Assembly (NCBI GenBank): GCA_963971405.1
Contig: OZ020491.1
Span: 17,912,855-17,976,854, forward strand
Length of the DNA stretch: 64,000 nt
Reading direction: 5' to 3'
From: Psococerastis gibbosa
Taxonomy: Eukaryota > Arthropoda > Insecta > Psocodea > Psocidae
Below, piece by piece: positions 4,561-54,790 of this stretch. The stretch's first letter is position 1, and the number at the start of each line of letters is the position of its first letter. A program made the position numbers and the translations under genes. Under the pieces are notes generated by a model. That model was not told the origin of the DNA. It did not search any database and saw nothing but the letters and a program-made list of their open reading frames with translations.

Positions 4561-5800
4561 TAATGTAATTCAAATATTAAATAAAGTATCGTAAGTATCA
4601 TAAGTTAAGTGAGAAATTTTGCTAGTACTTTTTATTTCATTTTATACCAGAAAGCTAAACGATCTTGATCCACTTAAATTGCATCTATATAATGATCTGA
4701 CTTCAAATCCGACCCTATTAGGCATTATACACAGACCCGTGCACTTGTGTTTTTATTTCTAACTGTATTACTGTATTAAATAAATAAATAAATAAATAAG
4801 CATTTATTTGCAAACCGACATAGTCTAATAATATGCAAATTTAACTTAACCATGCTTATCATAATTTACATGTGTGATTGCAGTATTACGTGTATTATTA
4901 TAGGCTATTTGACTGTGTTTTAACTTAAATTTTAAACTGTAAGCGCTATCGATGTGAACAAGGGCGGATTTTGCCTCCAATTTAGGGGGGGGGGGGTTAG
5001 CGGGTAGGTTCAGTGGATTATAACATTAAAAATAAATAAATTTAAAAAAAAACATAATTATATTTAATTCCCACTGTAAACCCTTTGTTATCTAGTGTAA
5101 GTTAATTTATTTGGGGGGGGGGGGGGTCCGGACCGGATGTGAACACATACAGCCTACAATATATATATCTGTTCATCAATGCAGTAATAAAATCTAATTA
5201 TTATTATTTATTCCAGTACTACAAGACAAAAATGATTTTTGCGAACTTTTTTCTGTCCCGAAAGCGCATACAATATATTACTCAAATAATGGACGACAAT
5301 ACAGTAGCCTCCCCCTTTTCATATCAATATGCAGGCTAGGTACAGCCGCACTTTATTTTATGAAGGTACATTACAATTAATTTTTAAAACGCAATAAAAG
5401 CTACATACAGGTACAATACATCTCCATTGTAAAGCAATCTAGTTTTCAACAATTTTCTCGGCATGAAATGTCTATTGTACGTCGTCCAAGAGCGTACCTA
5501 TTCACAGCGAATTTCACCCATGAGTAAATTTCATTACCAACCTTTTCTTTCTATCTCTATTTTATGGAGGCGCCTAGTTTTACAGGTATTCAACTGAATT
5601 GCACACAGATCTCGTCTGGTGGATATGAATAGAGACATTGCACGGCTTTGAATTTTAAACAAATTACGCGACACTGAAGATAAAATTGAAACAAATTATA
5701 CGAGATGGAAATTTTTCTTATTGCTTCTGTATTTTTAACAGCAGCATTCATCAAGCAGGCTACAGGGGACGGGAGGCTTTACTCTTGGTTTAATGAGATA
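4561..5800. other. intergenic stretch, no gene seen
   Basis: It contains an (AAAT)n microsatellite near 4780-4800 and G-runs near 4985 and 5115. A short open frame at 5139-5339 has no recognised family. Confidence 0.4.
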
Positions 5801-6285
5801 AGACAAGATACTGTTTATTTCAAAGGTATTCGAAGAATACATATAGAAATCGTTGCGTACAATATAAATAATACAAAATAATCACTATACAAAATAATGA
5901 GGTACCGTAACATCGTAGGCTATAAAGCCTGTGTCATATAGTTAACAAATTCATTGACCAAATAAAATGCGTTTTCCGTTAAGAGTGTTTTTAGATGTTT
6001 GCGAAAGAGTTTGGATAATGGAGCATTTTTCAAATCATGAGGTAAAATGTTAAAGAGCTTACTGCCTACATAAATGTCCTGATTTTCAGTCAGCTTCAGG
6101 GAGTGATTTGGAAGAACCACATTGGTCCTAAACCTAGTATTGTGCTCATGAACCTGCGCAAATGTAATGAGCCTCTGAGGATTTTCATGCGTAAAACAAA
6201 TACATTCAAGCATATACAGTGATGTATACGATATACGACCGCCTGTGTATGATGATACACAGGGGTATTCTTGGCAGGCCCGCAA
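5800..6285 (-). pseudogene. LINE reverse transcriptase C-terminal fragment
   Basis: The minus-strand frame ending at 5920 encodes a typical end of a Jockey/CR1-group ORF2. It has YMLECICFTHENPQ, an HNTRFRTN block, VLPNHSLKLTE, and KLFNILPHDLKNAP, followed by a short basic C terminus. The N-terminal endonuclease and palm are missing, so the copy is 5'-truncated near 6240-6285. The downstream stretch 5800-5920 is its 3' UTR and tail. It is a dead copy. Confidence 0.8.
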
Positions 6286-6431
6286 CGAGGGGGTTGGTGA
6301 CGTTGGTGTTACACAAGACAGAGTTGAACTATCCAGACGTGCAACATTTCACTACAGTACATACTATATACAGCCCCTCCCCCTGGAAAACATCCTGGTT
6401 ACGGGTCTGATTCCTGGGCATCTATTGGTAA

Positions 6432-6960
6432 GGAGCCTATTCCACTTGTCAATTTTTTTTTCAATAATTGAAGAGATTTTTTCTTTAGGCGGAGTTTCCA
6501 CATACGTTAATGGCCAATGGTAAATATGGTTTTGACGTGGTAGCTGACATTTTTAGTATGTCTTTAATGTCTGCTAAAACGTCAATACCATATTTACCAT
6601 TGACCATTGACGTATGTGGAACCCCCGCCTTACTCATTGTCACTGTCCACTTTAACTTCCGCATGTTAAAATTGATCAATAATAATAGAGTAAAATCACG
6701 CTTTGCAAACAATAACAAAATAAACAATGGCGTCGTCTGGATATGATAAATAATTGTAATTAATTTCTTGAGAGCAAACTAATTATCTCTTAATTTAAAT
6801 CATAAAATTTCTTGTAGATTATAAAATAAAAAAATAGAAAAAAAAATAGTCATTATTGAAGACAATTGGAATGAGGTGTAAAAGTATAAATGCATCATTG
6901 ATGATTTTCCGTCAATGAAATTATCAAAATTGAAGAAAAATTGGTAAGTGGAATTGCAAT
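6432..6960. mobile_element. degenerate GGCGG MITE hosting a nested MITE
   Basis: The left end GGAGCCTATTCCACTTGTCAA and right end near 6945-6955 (AAGTGGAATTG) are decayed versions of the family ends, and the interior matches the element at 1-398. A second element is inserted at 6488-6629. Confidence 0.65.
6488..6629. mobile_element. nested MITE with TTA duplication
   Basis: Ends GGCGGAGTTTCCACATACG and its complement are inverted over about 45 bp. TTA flanks both sides (6485-6487 and 6630-6632). It sits inside the older element at 6432-6960. Confidence 0.85.
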
Positions 6961-7187
6961 GGCAATGGCGTAATATTATTTAACAAAGGGTTAGTTGGGC
7001 TCAAATTGCCAGCTGTTTTAATAGTCATTAGAGGCAGGGGCCTCACAGTCATCGGACAATTAGGGCGGAGCCCATTGTCGGGGAAAGGAGGCGACGTTTC
7101 GGGAGTGGGCGAGGGCCGTGGTCGTGGGGTTAGAAAGCTCGCATTTCAATCGGGAGAACGGTAGTTGCTAAATAATACTCTTGGGCA

Positions 7188-7358
7188 GCAGCCTGATCGA
7201 GGCGATTATAATACTGGGGTTAAATAAATACCCAGGGATTATAACTGTAAACAAACAAATTTTGAATAGCACTTTCCATTATAAAATTATCTTGTTTACA
7301 TTTTTAATACCAGGGGATTAAATAAAGACGGGTATTATAATCGCCTCGATCAGGCTGC
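7188..7358. mobile_element. foldback/MITE, GATCGAGGCGATTATAAT ends
   Basis: GCAGCCTGATCGAGGCGATT at 7188 is repeated as its exact complement ending at 7358. The interior (GTTTACA and TTGTTTACA with AT-rich DNA) is again visible near 21535-21625 in MRM3 intron 3 as a partial relative. Confidence 0.8.
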
Positions 7359-9489
7359 AGATAGGCAGATATTGTACTGACTTATTTGTGTATGACTTAG
7401 TTAAGAGACAATAGGATGGGGATATCTCATGGAATATCTATCGTTGAGTTGACATGAACATCAGGACAAACAGAAGCATATTGATATGCATATATATATA
7501 TACGGTATGATATACAGGTACGATAGATATTTCCCGTCAAAACGACTTCATACACAAAAAAAAAACAGTAGTAGGGGTACTTCAATTTGCTATTAATATA
7601 CAAAGATTCTACTTTGTAGCCCCCCACTGTACGCACCGTACTAAAAAACTACTAACCAAGTGATATACAATAATTTGCACGTTACTGATATTGTAAATCA
7701 TCATTAAAGCCTATTACATGCTTTTCAAGGAGTCACTTAACTCATTAAGCGCTATGAGCAATTATCCTCCCATACAGCCAGGATTGCTACAATTGGGATT
7801 CGCACAACTGTGTGAAAAAAAGAGGACTTAAAATAGGTAATTAGACAGCCTGCGCCATTCTGGAGATTTTTCTGCATTTCCTAGCTCCTAGGATTTTATT
7901 ATTAAATGGCCAAGACGAGAAAGAGGCTAAATCGCTCGGAAACAAACCATAAAGTACGGGCATTAAATTCCAATATTTGTATTGGTTCAGCGCGGTTAGA
8001 CCCATGATCTGATTGGTTCGGCATGTATTTTTCAATACGAAGGTTGTACATTACCAAAGCAACCAGCAACGTTCAATATGTGAACACAGGCCGGAGCTTC
8101 ATTTGTATCCATCGCCTTTCTCACCTTACCGTACAAACTGTTACTGTTCCCAATCAGGTTACAAGTCGGATTTGCTTCTCTAGTTTAACCATCCATGGTC
8201 GAGACAAAAGAATTAGTAGCTCCAGTAATAGACGCATTATTCATACTGCCTGTCATTGTGCCAAATCAGCTATCTTTCAACATGGAAGGGCACAAGTGGA
8301 CTATGAGCTCTCAACGTCAAGCTCTAGCGAAGAGATATAACCCGGCCCGACGCGGATTAGTTTTCTTTACCCTGTGGTGGATTTTGGGGTTTTGCTACTG
8401 CATGCCTATAGTACATACCAATGCACAAGAATAACTTATCCGGAAATAAGGGTAATTATCCTAAATAAACCCATACTAGTTTTGATTGACTTGCAAGAAT
8501 AAGAGTGTATTAAAAATTAAAATCACAAATTGTTCATCAAGCCAGAATAATTGCTATTCATTAAATTGCATATGCCAGGCGTGGGTGGGATATTTTCTTC
8601 TGGGGTCTATTGGGCCCAATATGACATTACATTTGAATTTCGTCAGCTTTTGAGCGGGTTATTTTTAATGCCGCATTTAAATGGTTTTTAACATAAAAGG
8701 TAAGTTATTATTTTCCACTCGTGCTATACCTGCTGTTATACTGTATCCCTGCCGAATTATCATACAAAGTCGCATCAATTTTCATTTTCATTTCTTTTTC
8801 TTTGCAAGAGTGAAAAGCTCAGGCGCAGGTGCAACTATCAATTAATTTTCTTCACATCAGTAGTCGGTTCCCGCTGATCGTATACACAGACAGGCATCTG
8901 GGGACATAAGGCGGCTGAAGGGTTTTATTTTATGACTACAGCTCTCCTTTGTCAGATATTCAGGTAGGCCTGTACACAAAGCCGTAGCCAAGGTGGGGTT
9001 GATGAGGGTTCAACCCCCCCCCCCCCCCGAAATGAAATGGCTTGATACTAGATAGAATCGGATTTTGAGAGGAAAAATTAAAAAACCACTATGTAATATC
9101 CAATGAAATTTATAACCCCCCCGAAAAAATCCTGGCTACGGCCTTGCCCCTTGCCTGTACAGCGCAGAAATTTTGACATTACGCATGTAAGAGTGACTCC
9201 GAGGCAATTTGGTAATTAATGTCTGTTGTAGGACACTTGTCCCATGCTACGGGAGGTTAAATCTCTCTTCTATCATTAGAATTTTTTTTATAAATACACG
9301 AATTATCTATCTACCATCAATCATGGCAGCAGGGAATAATCCTGTGGGTAATTTCCATGACGCGACGGTCCGAGAGACATTATCTGACTTTTCAGACTGA
9401 TTAGTTCTCTACCAGCACATATCGTATGCCACACAGAACTTTATAGTACAATAGGATACTAGGGACCGTACGCTACATTACAATTTACA
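7359..9489. other. intergenic stretch, no gene seen
   Basis: Two overlapping frames at 8023-8434 translate through hydrophobic stretches but lack any recognisable domain. A C-run lies near 9010-9030. Nothing is assigned. Confidence 0.4.
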
Positions 9490-42100: not shown

Positions 42101-45100
42101 AAGATAAAACGTTCGGAAGCATTTGCAAACAAAGTACATGCCTTGTAGAAATTCCCACAAAAACGAGCCAGCTACCAACTGCCACCGAAGTCCCTAATCT
42201 GAGATGTAATATGTTTTATTTTAAACCAGGTGTATCGGTTATCGAAAGTCCTGGCCGAGCCCAATTTACCGAGCTTACTGCGAAAAGCTGACTTGGCCGC
42301 ACAGGAAAATCACGTGGTATTGTTTACTTCCGCTACCGAGGAAAAAGTATCAGCTCTTCTTCGTACACTGACGCGAACCATGGCCATTTTGTCCACTGCT
42401 GAAATGAATGCGCAAGAAAAGAAAAATTTGAGTTTTATGCAGGTAAGCTAATAGCTAAACAATTTTCTCAGATACCGCTAGTAGCCATAGAAAACGAAAA
42501 TAATAAAATACTGGGGTTGGTGAAGGCCCATGCGTGTAGTAGTAAGTTTACAAAAAAGTCAAAACTGTTTGAAACTTATTTTTACTCTATCCAATGCCAG
42601 CTCTTGGCGTCTTTGCCATTCACCGACGAGCCTCGAGTTCGAATTACATTTTTCCACTTTAGCTACTCTGAAGCTATAATACTATATGAAATAAAAAAAT
42701 TCGTCTATTGGAAAGACTTCCATTGTAAGCAGGAAAAAATCCCTTCCGGCTCTGGCCGATCAGGTGTAGGGAGGTTCCGCAGACCCTGTTTTTCCTCTAC
42801 GCTACCTATGTAATAAAATATGAAAAAATACTTCATTACTTTCCCGACCACAACATCAACACTCAAAACATTATTGTGTTCCAAATTTCGAACCACAATG
42901 ACGACTATGAATTTTTACTTATCAAATTATTTTCACTTTGACTGGACGCCATCTTAAAATGGTTGATTTGTCGTAAAAGGTGTTTTCACCATTATCGTAG
43001 ATAATACGAGCTTTCAGTCAAATTTTAATTCATTCCACTGCGACCAATTATATAGGGTTTCAATCGGCCGCCATCTTGTAACTGAACAGTGGATCTAACT
43101 GGTTAACGAACTCGATCAAGACATTTTTTGTATGATCAATTTTTGTACCAAGTTTCATCAAAATCGGATAATATTTACGGAAGTTAGAGTGTTTCCTAAA
43201 ATCGATATATACATACATACATATATATATACATATATATATATATATATGTATAACATTTTGAACGGCGGGTGGTTTTAGGCTCAAGGGATCATGAAAT
43301 GAAAAGTTGTGAAGAAGTTTTCCGCAAGTCGAACATTGGTTCTCAATAATCGTAATTTCTGATTATAGAGGCTCCGAGAGTGGTTTTTGCTCCTGGGCAA
43401 TGCCGATTACTCTTCTACCGATCGGAAAACAACATTGGCTTATTTAGAACACACAATCAATTGGCTCAGCGCAGTATTTAACGTGTACCCGCCCGATGCC
43501 GCTGACCAGGGGACTACTGCTTCTGTCCAGCCCTCCATGCTGGACCCTGCCCTAGCCCAAAAACGCGTTGCTAGCATCAAGTACGGCGGGAACCCAGATC
43601 TAGAACCAATTCGCTCGACTGAAGTGGCCTCTCTAGTCCGCTTGTTTCTTCGTTTATCTCGCGATCTTAATGAAGCGGTATGTACCTTTTACTAATATAC
43701 ACGGACGATTTGAACGCCAGTGATTCGCCCCATGCTTGTGTGTATGAGTGAGTGAGTGTTTTAGTCTTAAGAAATTTGTTTCTTTTTCTTTTCCTTGTAT
43801 TGCAAATTTATACTGTTTTTGTTGCTGACCCCTAGTTGAGTTTAACAGAGGCCCTTATGGCCCCTAACTCCGCTAGGATGGTCTCAGCTATGGGACCATG
43901 GCGCAGCCGGCGGGTACCATCACGAGCCCTGTGAGTTTGGTGCTGAATGACTTTAATTTAGACATAAGGAAATTGAAAGACCTGCAAACAAGTGCAAAAA
44001 ACTGGGCAACTGGTGAGTTTGAAAAAAGAAAAATACTGCGTGCTGATTATGATCAGCTTTGTGACCTTCTTAGTCAGGTGTCAGTGTTGGTCGCACGCAC
44101 GGAGACGCGGGCCCAAACCATGTGCCAACTGCTAGCCCCTGCTCATGCAAAACTTGAGACTGTTGAGAGCGATGTCAAAGAGCTGACAAAAAAAGTTCCG
44201 GCAAAAAGTCCATCTTTTGCCGATAAAGTGAAGCTCCCAAGTGTTAAGTCAAGCCAACCAAACGAATCAAATAGGCAATCAATGCAGCAGCTTAAACCCC
44301 GAGACAAAGTTCTTGTCATCAAACCAAAAACTCTCAAAGGTTCTGATAAAGAGGAGAGCCTGCAAATTAGGGAGACCCTTAAAAACTCCATCACCGAGCA
44401 GCAGGGCACCAAAATAAAGAGGGCTATTAACGTCCGGGGAGGGGGAGTGCTGCTAGTCCTCGACCCTAGAGAGGACAAGAATAAGCTCAGGAGCAGTATC
44501 GTCTCCCAAGACCCTGAGCTGATTGTCTCCGAGCCATCAGATAGGATGCCCCGAGTTATCCTGTACGATGTCCCGTCAGAGCTAAGCAAGAATGGGCTGG
44601 CCACAAGTTTTTTCTCAAAAAATCTGGACCGATCAATCTCAGTGGACAAGAGCAAGGACTTCGTGCCCTTGTACAAAACCGGGCCCAAAGGTAAGAGCAC
44701 AAGTCACTGGGTGGTGGAGTGCTCGCCTGAAGTGAGGAAGACGATCACTGGAGCATGACGGGTGTATTTGGATTGGACCTCCTGCAAAGTCAAAGACCAT
44801 GTAGCTGTATCCAGGTGCTACGCATGCCACAAATATAATCACTCAGCAAAATTTTGTTCCCAGCAAAGTAGCCCAATCTGTGGGCATTGTGCAACCGTTG
44901 GCCATGTTTACAAAGACTGCCCTACCAAGATTAGCCACTCCCCAATTTGCATAAATTGTAAGCGAAATGGCCTCCAAGATTTTAATCACAAGGTTAATTC
45001 AGTTACTTGCCCTTCTTATTTAAAAGCCATGAAACAATTAATTGACAATACCAATTATGGCCTTGACTTCTAAGGGTAGTAAATATTTGCAATCTATCTT

Positions 45101-48100
45101 TAAAACTTTTTCTGGCAGGAAAAATGACAAATGTGTTCCAAGTCAAAATTCTAAAATTTTAGAGCTTTCAGCAATATTAGATAATATTAGTAATTTCTAT
45201 GTTAACAATTCCACTCCCAAGAGTAAAATTAATCTTATGTACAACTTAGGGGAAGAAGTCGATTTACTCATTGGTTTCGCTTATCATGATCGCGTAAAGA
45301 AAAAAGTTAGGTTGTCAAAAGGTGTAAGCAAACGTCTTAATATTACGTCATTGAGTGAAGAAAAATTTCAGCAATACCCAGTAGTCAGTATTGGAAACTC
45401 ATTATGCCTTAGGCATAGTATAATTGGTATAAATTGTTGTACATTGATTCTAGAAATATGGGATTCCACTGTCGGCTTTAAAAGTTTTTCTAGTCTTTTA
45501 TCAATTGTAGATAACTGGGCTTTTGTCAACTATCCCCTTGTTTTAGGTATAGATATATATACTATTAGTGGCTACATGGACTTTCCGGCGTTAGAAATAC
45601 TCAATATTGTACTGATGCAACAAAACTTAAAATTTGTTTTTTACAATAAGGGTTATAGAAATATTGATTTTCTTCAGATTCCAAGCCAGCATGCCCCCGA
45701 TGAGCAGCCTAACCCCTCAGGCTATCTTTTGCATAAAAATCAACAAGAGTTCTATATTAATAGTATGATAGAACTTAGAAATATATTGCTGAATGCCGAT
45801 CATATGAACGCGGTCAAATATCAGGCTATACTTGAGTCAGCACTCACCCAGTAATCGCATATCAGGTGCTGCAATTAGTCTAATTAGGTCAACTAACACA
45901 AATATATACAATAATGAGTGCTCCTCGTTTCTGATCAAAACAAATATTATATATAGGATGGGATACGCTCTAAATGATGGCTATGTTTCCTTTTGTCCCC
46001 TCTCCCAAAAATTCAATACTGCAGAAAAATATATCTTGGTAACAGATAAGACAGAGCTAATGCTGAATGCTGAACTGATGCAGTCTATAGGTAAGGTGAA
46101 CATATTCGCACGTCCTATGCCTAAGCTGACTTTCGTTGAGGGCTGCCCCGGATCAGGCAAATCGCATTACATCATTCAGCAGCACTGCCCAGGGCGGGAT
46201 CTAATACTGACCCACACTAGGGAGGCTGTAAAAGATATAAGAATAGTAACAGAAAAGCGATTTCCAAACAACAAAAATCTACAGCTTCTCCAGAACTATC
46301 GCACTATTTCATCATTTATAATCAATTATCGAGGGGAAAGTATGAAAGGGTTTTTATTGATGAGATTTCGCTTGGTCATGCCGGTTTTATAGGCTTTGTC
46401 GCTAATCTTACTCACGCAAAGGAAATTGTCCTCCTCGGAGATCATAAGCAAATTCCATACATAGAGAGAAGCCCTTTCAAAGTAAATTTTCACAATGTCA
46501 CTGGGCTGTGCAGTCCGGAAGCTTTCCTTACTCAGACCAGGAGGTGCCCTGTAGATGTAGCATACGCTTTGTCCACGACCTACCCGAATATCACAAGCAG
46601 AAATCCAATCGTAAATTCAGTAGGCCTAACGTTATCTAATGGTGAGTTTTACCAGTTAAAACCTGGTTCACTCATTTTAACATTTACTCAAGCTGAGAAA
46701 CGCAAAGTTTCAAAAGCACTAGTGGGTAAGTGCTCTAAACCCATCCAAATCTGCACAGTCCACCAGAGTCAAGGGAAAACATCTGAACACGTTGTTTTGT
46801 GCAGAATGAATCCATTGCCGCTGGAAATTTACCACAGCATTCCTCACGCCATAGTGGCTATTTCAAGACACACAAAATCGTTTCAGTACCTAACAACTGT
46901 AAACGATGATGATGCAGTTAGCTTATTAATAAGGAAGGCCAGAATTATGAGCCCAAGACAACTCCTTGTGTGGCATATTAAACAAACAAATAAGCAACAT
47001 AATAATAATAAAATAAGTTTTATAATAGGGGAAAAACCGGCAAGGGACATTAAGTGCTCTGAGTCATTGCCGGAGTTTGAGTCACTAAACCATGGCTGAT
47101 GATCCTGAATTATTCTCTAATGAGCTATTATTCCTCCTGAATAATTATTCATTAATAGACGCTGATTCAGCGGAGAATACTATTAATATTGATAATGGAT
47201 CCTCGTTAGAGGACTCATTACTATCAGTTGCTCAACTTCACCCTACTGCACTTCATATTGCTCACATTAATTCACAATCCCTCTTAGCTCATGTTGATTA
47301 CCTACAAGCCTCCTTTCTCTCCTGTAAATTTCATATTATAGCGGTCAGTGAAACATGGTTGAAGCCCTCTTTGGACTCTAGCCTGGTTGCTCTCCCCGAA
47401 TACTTCTTCTTTCGGAATGATCGCATTGGGAAGGGTGGTGGTGGCGTTGGGATATTCGTACACGATAGCATTAAAGCCAAAGTCCTCGAATTGTCAAACG
47501 GGCAGTATAACGAAAAGTGTGAATTTATGTTCATGGAAATAATTTTGAGAAAACAAAAGCTTTTATTTGGTGTTTGCTACAGGCCTCCTTGCGTTGATAG
47601 TGCATTCTCAGAGTATGAATCAGCTCTTCTGGAGCTTTCAACTGCATATGATCATATTATTGTAACTGGTGACTACAACGCAGACTTGCTAAAAAAGGAG
47701 AAACCTGATACGAGGAGCTTGTTGAGCATATTCGAGTCATGTGGCATACAACCTCTTTCGCTATCTCCCACCCACAACAATGCTCTATTGGACATAATAG
47801 TTGTTAGTGATAGTAGGCGCGCACTGAATCATGGGCAGTTAGTCGCTCCAGGTTTTTCTCACCATGACTTGATTTATCTAAGTTACTCTATTAAGCCCCC
47901 TAAACCACCACCAAAGTTTATCACCTACAGAAGTTTTAAAGATTTTAGTGAAGAGGATTTTATGAGATGCGCGGCACTCCTACCATGGCACGAAATTCAG
48001 GTACTATCCAGTGTTAATGACAAAACAGACAGGCTGAATTCAATGATAATCTCATTGTATGACAGATTTGCACCAGTAGTCACACGTAGGGTGACACACC

Positions 48101-51100
48101 CCCCCGCGCCTTGGCTTACGCCAGTCATCAAAACTCTAATGAAGGATAGGGATCGAGCATTCTCTCTTTGCAAACGCCACTCTACATTGGAAGCGCGCGC
48201 CAGGTACAAAAAACTCAGAAACAGGGTGTCACAGGCCATCAGGAATGCCAAATTAAAACAAGCTCACTCTCTTTGCGAACTGTCTGGGAAGAAACTTTGG
48301 TCAGGTCTTAAAAAGTTTGGAGTTGGTAAGAAAACAACGAATTCCATTTCACATTTTGATCCAGACAAATTAAATAATCACTATGCATCCGTAGTGCCTA
48401 TACCTCTTATAAATGAAGTACACAGTACGGTTGAAAATATTATGTCTCAGCCCAAGCCGACTTGCCCGCCTTTCTGTTTTAAGGCAGTATCCCCTCATGA
48501 GGTTCGGAAGGCTATTTCTTCAATTAAATCTAATGCCGCCGGATTTGACACCATAAACGCAAACATGATTAGCCGCCTAATAGATCACATTTTACCGTCT
48601 GTTGTAACCATTTTTAACCAATCTCTGGCATCAAGCATCTTTCCCATAACTTGGAAAACCTCTATTGTTCAACCATTGCCGAAGTGTGAGAAACCAGAAT
48701 CTTTCAACGACTTACGACCGATCAGTCTTCTTCCTATCTTGTCAAAAGCTCTAGAAAAAATAGTTCATTCGCAAATGAGTGAGTACCTAAAATTCAACAG
48801 CTTGACTGACAACTTCCAATCTGGTTTTCGTGCAGGTTGCAGTACCACAACAGCGTTATTAAATGTGATGGATGATATAACTATTGCAGCCTATGGCGGG
48901 ATGGTCACCATTATGACATTACTGGATAAAAGTAAAGCCTTTGACAGCGTTAACCATGATGTTCTACTGGCTCGTCTATCAGCCTTGAATTTTTCGTCGG
49001 ACGCTATTGCATGGGCAAAATCATATCTCAGTGGTAGAGTACAGATTGTAAAAATTGGCGAAAAACTATCGGCAGCCTCCCCTATTCGCTCGGGAGTGCC
49101 TCAAGGCTCTGTCCTTGGTCCTCTCCTCTTTTCAATTTATGTGTCAGATTTAGCGTCGAGTCTGAAATACTGTAGATACCATTTTTATGCAGATGATCTG
49201 CAGCTCTACGCGCATACGAATCAGTTCAACTTTGTTGCTACAGCGGATAAAGTCAATAACGATCTAAAGAATGTGGAGGGTTGGTGTGGCAGTAATTTTC
49301 TAATGATAAACCCAAATAAGTGCCAGTCAATAATCCTTGGCTCCAGAAAGCTTGTGTCCAGAATTATGAAAAGTGCCCCACCTCCGATTATAATAGGTTG
49401 TAGAAATATCCCCTACGAAGAGCAAGCCATTAAAAATCTTGGCCTATACATTGACCAGGGTCTTACTTGGCATGATCATACCAAAAGAGTGTGTAAAAAG
49501 GTTTTTTACTCCTTACACGCCCTGCAGCGCCTAAAATTTTTACTTCCTGTTGCTATAAAGCGAAATCTGATCCAATCATTAATATTTCCTATATTTGACT
49601 ATGTTGATTTGATTTACAGTAGTTGTAATGAAGTCGATGCTAGGCGCCTCCAATATGCGCAGAACTCATGCATGCGGTTCATTTACAATGTGAAACGGCG
49701 GGATCACATAACCCCATTCTACCGCAGGGCTCAGTGGCTGAAATTAGGTGAAAGAAGAACTTTCCACTCACTATTATTAGTATATAAGGTTTTGAACAGT
49801 GCAGCTCCTCCATATCTATATGACCGCCTAAAGCCATTGAATTCCCATAGAAATGGACTTGTATTGCGAATACCCCGACATAACACAGCTTTATATGGTA
49901 GTTCTTTTTTTGTAAATGTCTGCCGCCAGTGGAACTCCCTAGGTAAGGAAATTAGATCCCAGCCAAAGATTCGTGGGTTCAAAAGCCAGTTACTGAAAAA
50001 ATTACTAGGAACAGAATAGGTTTAGAATAAGAATACTGTCTAGATATTTACTGTATGTTTTTTTTTTTTTTTTTTTTTTTTTGCGTCACGTTACTTTAGA
50101 ATAAGTTCTTTTTATGCATTGTTAGAATAAGATTGTTTACGTTAAGCCTATGTATTTTGTAAATTGTATTGTTTTTGGACGTGGGTTAGGCAGAAAAAGA
50201 CTTTCTAGTCTTAAGTCTCGCCCCGTAAATATAAGACGTTTATTATTATTATTATTATTAATAAAGCCATTATTTATTTATTATTCGCTGAGAAATTTGT
50301 CATGGGAGCAAATAGGTTGCTGCGAAACGACAGAGTATACTGCAGCATATTTTCATCACAGGCGCACTGTTTTCCCCTCGACACATTAGTGACCTAGAAA
50401 TTTTTTGAAGTGCGTTCAGAATTAAAAATTTTGTTTTGTACCGACCAATCGCCATCCCATTGGTTCCCATGACAAATTTCACAGCGTCTGAGGATCGTCC
50501 GTGTGTATCGGCCTTAGGAGCATGTGTGCGTTTGTGTTACAGTACATCGATATCAAACGTTTACTGGCTTGCCTAACTAGATAAAGGAACCTTAATATCC
50601 TAGGTTTAAGCAGTTAATTTAGGCTTCATCAATGTGAAATAAGGCATTGCATTGCCGCCGTGTTTTGACATGCACAGTATGTAAAACACCCATACAAACT
50701 ATTCGATGGATGTATTGAATAACCTATTTAGTTGGCTCTGTAGGAAATTTTAATGCGACTCAAGTTCCATAATTGTGCCCCATCATCAATCATAAGTTTT
50801 TGGGACGTTATAAGAGATAGATAGAAATAGATAGAAAAACGTGTATTTCTCAACAAAAATGAACATGAAATAACAACCTGTGCCCCCTCAAGCCGAAGCG
50901 TGGGAAGGTGAAAGAAAGAAAATTGTTTTTATTTTCAATGTTGGCGAACTATGATACTTACTAAATATTTCCTCTTTTTGTGCAGTACGGACATCAAATT
51001 GCAGAACTATGGCATCGACAAGACTTAAAAGGACGTATTAGTCGAGAGTTTTTGGCGCCACCTTGCCAATACTTCTACTTTCATAAGACTGGTCCTGGTA

Positions 51101-53871: not shown

Positions 53872-54790
53872 TTGTTCAAAGTGGGAAAATATGATGATAC
53901 CTGGCACATGTACTTCCTGAAAAAAATACTTTTTGTTCCAGTGCCCTTCCAGCACAGGAAACATTTTGAATCGGAACTAACACAGCCTTCGATCGATAAA
54001 TTGGAAGGACATACTTCCCATTCTATAGAAGTAGAAGAGGATTGGATTCGATTGAATGTAGGGGGAGCATATTTCAATACTTCAAGAACCACCTTGCAGA
54101 GGGAACCATCAAGCATGCTGACAAATATGTTCAGTAAGGACCTGCCTATGAATCCTATTAAAATGGATGCAACTGGAGCATATTTAATATATCGGGACCC
54201 TCAATACTTCCGAGTAATCCTTAATTACCTACGTTGTGGAGAGCTGGTTCTTGATGATAACGTTAGCTATGAAGGAGTGGTTACTGAAGCGAAATTTTTT
54301 GGCATTGATTCTAATCTTGCCATGGAGTCTGATATAATCCGTTTGAATGTAAGTGGAAAAATACTGACTACATCTCGAACTGTTCTAAGCAAATTTCAAA
54401 AGAATAATATTAATTTAACCGTCGGTAACAGATAAAACAGGGGCATATCATGTAGACCGAAATCAAACATCGTTTGAATTGCTGTTGGAGTATTTTCGAA
54501 ACGGAAATGAGTTTCGCAATAATGGATTGGTTCACTTTAATAAGATTATTATGGAAGCTGAGTTCTTTGGCGTTGAATATTCAATTACTAAGCCTACAAT
54601 GAATTCGCAAATGATCAAGTTAAATGTTGCCGGTACAATTATGCTCACTTCTTTTGAGTCTCTTAATAAAGTTCATATAAATCATATAAACTTATCACCA
54701 CAGAATATGGATGAGACCGGCGCTTTCTTCGTCAACCGCAATCCTGTACAGTTTAATTTTTTTTGCGCTCACTTCGAGGTGGAGTATTGA
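53872..54790 (+). pseudogene. KCTD9-like tandem BTB/T1 domains, frameshifted
   Basis: KCTD-type BTB domains form oligomers and often serve cullin-3 ligases. The first domain is WIRLNVGGAYFNTSRTTLQ, SSMLTNMF, DATGAYLIYRDPQYFRVIL, AKFFGID, closest to KCTD9. A second begins IIRLNVSGKILTTSRTVL and, after a +1 frame change near 54422, continues with ELLLEYFRNGNEF and AEFFGVEYS. A third begins MIKLNVAGTIMLTS, has DETGAFFVNRNPVQF and stops early (54788-54790). The three units are well diverged. The TTCCAG at about 53940 could be a splice acceptor, with the upstream part not native. It is either a decaying gene or part of one with the frame break as an error. Confidence 0.7.

Follow-up and report, generated by a model that had tools for sequence, protein, structure and literature searches.

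A 64,000-nucleotide stretch of the genome of the insect Psococerastis gibbosa (genome G000, contig C19:17912855-17976854; the window, meaning the whole stretch) carries a long interspersed nuclear element (LINE) in which a gene for a predicted viral superfamily 1 (SF1) helicase lies between a gag-like gene and the gene for endonuclease (EN) and reverse transcriptase (RT). The window copy is not an intact element but one decayed member of a family of non-long terminal repeat retrotransposons with three overlapping genes, here called family A. Searches of the host's own genome (409 Mb in 68 contigs) and comparison with a second family, B, indicate that gag and helicase seem to form a 5' cassette that LINE lineages can exchange, and that the lineage of family A's EN-RT gene seems to have received its cassette in this way. 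Our best overall explanation, which we hold with a probability of about 0.7, is a decayed copy of a three-gene LINE with a captured replicase block, a 5' cassette that travels and an accessory middle protein that acts on RNA.

A first-pass annotation had proposed the helicase from its motifs, and all of these were located in the stretch given for them, a match far above chance: GCPGSGKSH (46141-46167) with LTHTREA just downstream, FIDEIS (46353-46370), GDHKQIPYIER (46437-46469), TVHQSQGK (46755-46778) and AISRHT (46857-46874). The single frame 46323-47096, with nothing joined to it, matches the viral family Viral_helicase1 (PF01443, E=4.4e-26, 92.5 bits against a gathering cut-off of 21), and in the sister copy L031 one frame of 468 aa matches the tomato mosaic virus helicase in the Protein Data Bank (PDB) at 3.6e-29. 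Judged from its sequence, the helicase of the middle open reading frame (ORF) is a viral SF1 helicase of the virga/tobamovirus type, as the annotation had it. It has in common with the tobamovirus replicase helicase (tomato mosaic virus, 3vkw/3wrx) an N-terminal domain and an SF1 core with the SF1 motifs, but it lacks an attached methyltransferase or polymerase and is located in a retrotransposon. The gene order originally given (gag-like ORF, helicase ORF, then EN-RT or ORF2) also proved correct, and the helicase is free-standing, the domain not being found in ORF2. What had to be abandoned is the reading of 45057-47099 as one ORF; there are 14 stops in that frame, and in the window copy the gene begins in frame 0, passes into frame 1 at ~45832-45851 and returns to frame 0 at ~46330-46350. 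Motifs I and Ia consequently stand in a different frame from motifs II to VI, while the complete set (I, Ia, II, III, V and VI) occupies one frame in both L031 and a family B copy, L044.

The helicase recurs with the element. An ORF2 search of the genome gave at least 50 matches; among those listed, ten begin at ORF2 codon 1-4, and in seven of these ten a helicase match of 66-100% identity ends directly at ORF2, showing that the helicase belongs to the LINE family and is not a chance insertion. The 66% copy (L003/L032) has its middle ORF split in two parts by other DNA, the further part being 99% identical. In two others of the ten (L017/L035 and L019/L042) the middle ORF is of family B type and is truncated after motif Ia; the remaining one (L004/L033) has no middle ORF in the stretch fetched. 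A helicase search listed 148 matches, comprising family A, family B (66-68%) and distant ones. Family A copies vary in 3' tail length, have different flanks and show 5' truncation, as expected of a LINE, and the presence of EN and RT in a single ORF places the element among the non-LTR retrotransposons. Intact counterparts of the middle ORF, for which the annotation had suggested a search, are found in family B, which has four stop-free frames of 685-687 aa (two of them read). L044 comprises a family B gag (421-aa frame), a middle ORF of 674 aa from its ATG, overlapping gag by the same 14 nt as in family A, and an EN-RT whose reading frame changes close to the beginning. In other datasets, proteins P0001-P0014 are 36-65% identical to family A and P0015-P0016 also carry the gene; none is informatively named. 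Between families A and B the proportions of nonsynonymous and synonymous differences (pN 0.247, pS 0.789, 448 codons) point to conservation of the helicase; the one within-family pair measured, L034 versus the window copy, shows neutral decay (nonsynonymous divergence dN 0.029, synonymous divergence dS 0.030, 258 codons).

The two families differ sharply in how alike their parts are. Identity between A and B is 48% for gag and 62% for the helicase but 26% for ORF2 (670 aligned columns), and the family A ORF2 is 43% and 37% identical to those of two other own-genome families, R42 and R38. No gag or middle-ORF piece was matched in the six R42/R38 copies fetched (L036-L041). Of these, five were read, and a short ORF1 was found in L036, L037, L039 and L040, with no ORF1 of at least 110 aa in L041; the ORF1s of L036 and L040 are 32% alike and neither resembles the A/B gag by BLASTP. 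An RT tree of six rows joins A to R42 and R38 (100/100) and puts B next to D (94/96); long branches lead to D and to the fusion protein P0017. When D is left out, the A, R42 and R38 group remains at 100/100, and the tool warns that B and P0017, both long branches, are brought together. In the helicase tree (22 rows), by contrast, A, B and P0001-P0003 form one group (100/99) that excludes D, and the two viruses lie at the opposite end (100/100); the single ORF2-fusion row has a long branch and stands at a fork that this tree does not resolve. The two trees, whose comparison had been proposed at the outset, thus conflict in the way that transfer of a 5' cassette to an ORF2 of R42/R38 type would produce. 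Moreover, since both gag and helicase of A are homologous to those of B, it is more likely that A acquired the cassette already assembled, which argues against the independent capture that the annotation had thought probable. As a separate observation, family R38 (L040, L041 and other matches to its 990-aa ORF2) has at least 8 matches of identical score and so was recently active; the helicase was not found in its two fetched copies.

One exchange can be seen directly. Two copies on different contigs, L035 (C21) and L042 (C2), are chimeras of a family B 5' half and a family A ORF2. L042 starts where L044 starts and contains family B gag and middle ORF, 98% identical to L044, up to ...TTCAT; beyond this joint it is family A sequence (98%) through ORF2 and the 3' untranslated region, and TCAT is found at the joint in both parents. 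L035 is shorter at both ends but has the identical joint, so the chimera has itself been copied or has spread. The chimeric middle ORF is open for 414 codons and lacks motifs II to VI, so its occurrence at two loci indicates that this subfamily can move without the helicase core, at any rate when helped in trans. Movement of gag and the middle gene between LINE lineages would most likely have occurred by template switching in reverse transcription. L035 and the family B copy L043 are also 5'-truncated at nearly the same point, no more than ~20 bases apart and a little upstream of where the middle ORF starts, which might be due to chance, to an RT stop or to transcription that began internally. 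L043 and L044 in addition share a frame change within the endonuclease region (L044:5105-5545 versus 5400-8174), either an inherited defect or a programmed frameshift.

The layout of the window copy is given in the table. Its 5' limit is where similarity to L034 begins, and its 3' limit (50258-50266) is where similarity to L031, L034 and L042 ends; ~25 gag codons present at the 5' end of L034 are missing from it. The Cys/His knuckles of gag were recognised by eye, with a Pfam zf-CCHC_4 match of E 0.6. The middle ORF shares 14 nt with ORF1 and 8 nt with ORF2, and ORF2 matches RVT_1 (2.5e-34) and Exo_endo_phos (6.4e-8), with PF14529 also matched.

Features of the family A copy in the window (window coordinates)
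Feature	Position	Strand	Remarks
LINE copy (family A), 5'-truncated, (ATT)n 3' tail	43891..50260	+	shared-sequence limits; ends good to a few bases
ORF1, gag-like, Cys/His knuckles	43898..45073	+	in-frame TGA 44756-44758; natural N terminus missing
Middle ORF, two frame changes	45060..47099	+	ATG 45060, stop 47099; open counterpart L044 (674 aa)
N-terminal domain, macrodomain-like by predicted fold	45207..45683	+	model residues ~50-208; AlphaFold, Foldseek/VIA
Helicase N-terminal domain, tomato mosaic virus type	45690..46140	+	placed via alignment to relative P0001
Motif I (Walker A) GCPGSGKS	46141..46164	+	frame 1
SF1 helicase core, motifs II-VI, one open frame	46323..47096	+	PF01443 4.4e-26
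ORF2, EN-RT, open, 975 aa	47092..50019	+	PF00078, PF03372
3' (ATT)n tail	50240..50260	+	

The middle protein extends well upstream of its helicase, and its N-terminal third may be macrodomain-like. In an AlphaFold model (predicted local distance difference test score 78.4), Foldseek/VIA suggests a weak likeness to macrodomains, in fold only, with no macrodomain among 21 PDB matches to the sequence profile and none in a Pfam scan of 11 members. The best structural matches of the whole middle-protein model are replicases of insect virga-like viruses (Atrato virga-like virus 1; A0A1L3KJX8), to which the N-terminal domain alone is weakly matched; those are full viral replicases, however, without gag or EN-RT. 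A macro domain followed by a helicase is also the order described for hepatitis E virus in the part of the source available (PMC5062859). The middle protein looks like a captured virga-like replicase block, made up of a domain that is macrodomain-like in fold only, a tobamovirus-type helicase N-terminal domain and an SF1 core.

A further arrangement is found in L045, where a 1130-aa ORF (L045:186-3578) joins a helicase (5.3e-32) to a C-terminal Ulp1-type protease (Peptidase_C48, 1.5e-12). The ORF also has a region that aligns to the N-terminal domain of the A/B middle protein, and it ends 91 bases before an open 597-aa EN-RT frame in which RVT_1 is matched only in part. L045 is the only full-length copy among 84 matches, at least 38 of which are partial and lie in an array on C14. 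Large repeat arrays at C14:20.23-20.84 Mb (sampled as L046) and C3:25.59-25.89 Mb (sampled as L047) contain broken pieces of L045-type helicase ORF and resemble a satellite into which part of a LINE was taken up. It is conceivable, at a little under even odds, that LINEs of this group captured the virga-like block (macrodomain-like domain plus helicase) and that it circulates with gag among distant LINE lineages by RT template switching, with one swap present at two loci and one lineage having added a Ulp1 protease.

Helicase-bearing LINEs have been known since 2015/2017, including with the helicase upstream of ORF2, and the present host may fall within their published host range. In the part of their paper available, Morozov et al. 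(2017; PMC5563155) report, for Nilaparvata lugens, LINEs of the Jockey superfamily in which an SF1 helicase (SF1H) ORF lies very near ORF2 or overlaps it, by 2 nt in one contig, with Homalodisca sequences organised in the same way and SF1H-coding ORF1s in more Hemiptera and in Orthoptera. The different architecture that the first-pass annotation had proposed is thus not supported: there, as here, a virga-like SF1 helicase ORF directly precedes or overlaps the EN-RT ORF2. As far as that description goes, those LINEs have an ORF1 with a single SF1H-related domain, whereas the present element has a separate knuckle-bearing gag ORF ahead of the helicase ORF, a middle protein whose N-terminal domain is macro-like in fold, and a cassette that appears to be exchanged between RT lineages. 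The lepidopteran TRAS/R1 LINEs reported by Lazareva et al. (2015; PMC4686597, in the part available) also bear a viral SF1 helicase, but fused to the ORF2 C terminus, while ours precedes EN-RT as an ORF of its own. Neither the available text of PMC5563155, PMC6338049 and PMC4686597 nor article titles were found to mention a macro-like domain, an exchange of the cassette or a fusion to Ulp1, a weak negative because the subscription literature is largely uncovered.

Other origins of this gene arrangement fit the data less well. Insertion of a viral fragment, as an endogenous viral element, into a single LINE copy would sit well with the decayed and frame-broken window copy, but it is refuted by the sister copies carrying the helicase, by the long open frames of family B and by the related proteins in other datasets, and we give it practically no credence. 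LINEs are usually thought to descend vertically, and A and B might accordingly have inherited gag, helicase and RT jointly, the RT having evolved faster and R42 and R38 having lost the cassette. This is improbable, as it requires RT to evolve far faster than gag and is at odds with the fully supported A, R42 and R38 clade, with the short ORF1s of R42 and R38, which by BLASTP are unrelated to the A/B gag, and with the swap directly visible in L035 and L042.

As to function, the middle protein would be made from the same mRNA as the other ORFs, probably by reinitiation at the overlapping stop and start, and would join or act on the ribonucleoprotein of the element, binding or unwinding duplex RNA. 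The benefit could be that element RNA is shielded from silencing by small interfering or PIWI-interacting RNAs, or that structure is cleared ahead of the reverse transcriptase. We lean slightly, and at somewhat under even odds, towards the anti-silencing role; the SF1H of a Plutella LINE weakly suppresses silencing in plants, according to the available parts of PMC5563155 and PMC4686597. Action in target-primed reverse transcription, where unwinding of template RNA structure or of the RNA-DNA hybrid would raise full-length copying, is a possible but slightly weaker candidate: the helicase ORF shares a unit with RT and viral SF1H is described as unwinding RNA-DNA duplexes (PMC5563155, in part), but the six fetched copies of family A's closest own-genome EN-RT relatives carry no helicase, and the chimera has lost motifs II to VI. 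Morozov et al. (2019) proposed, in the part available (PMC6338049), that the helicase is kept for host antiviral defence and not for the element; this too we consider improbable here, given that the gene is still part of a mobile element whose ORFs overlap and that the one within-family pair measured decays neutrally. The function of the middle protein is likely accessory, not essential.

Some neighbouring and unplaced observations may be added. A 34-nt inverted repeat, 85% complementary (window 50286-50319 and 50453-50486), adjoins the LINE 3' end and is possibly another small element, and a BTB/POZ open frame (53872-54435; BTB_2 PF02214, 3.7e-23) is likely a host gene or duplicate. Elsewhere in the genome, a 61% helicase match (C14:24369614-24370111) lies inside a 730-aa open frame, and TTAGG arrays are present, in keeping with an arthropod host.

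Histories of LINEs are usually drawn from RT alone, on the assumption that the 5' genes go along with it. In the present case a module of viral origin, for counter-defence or processing, seems to pass as one unit between RT lineages, and a natural junction is at hand. If the N-terminal domain is indeed a macrodomain, modules that RNA viruses use against host responses would be recycled as a set by retrotransposons.
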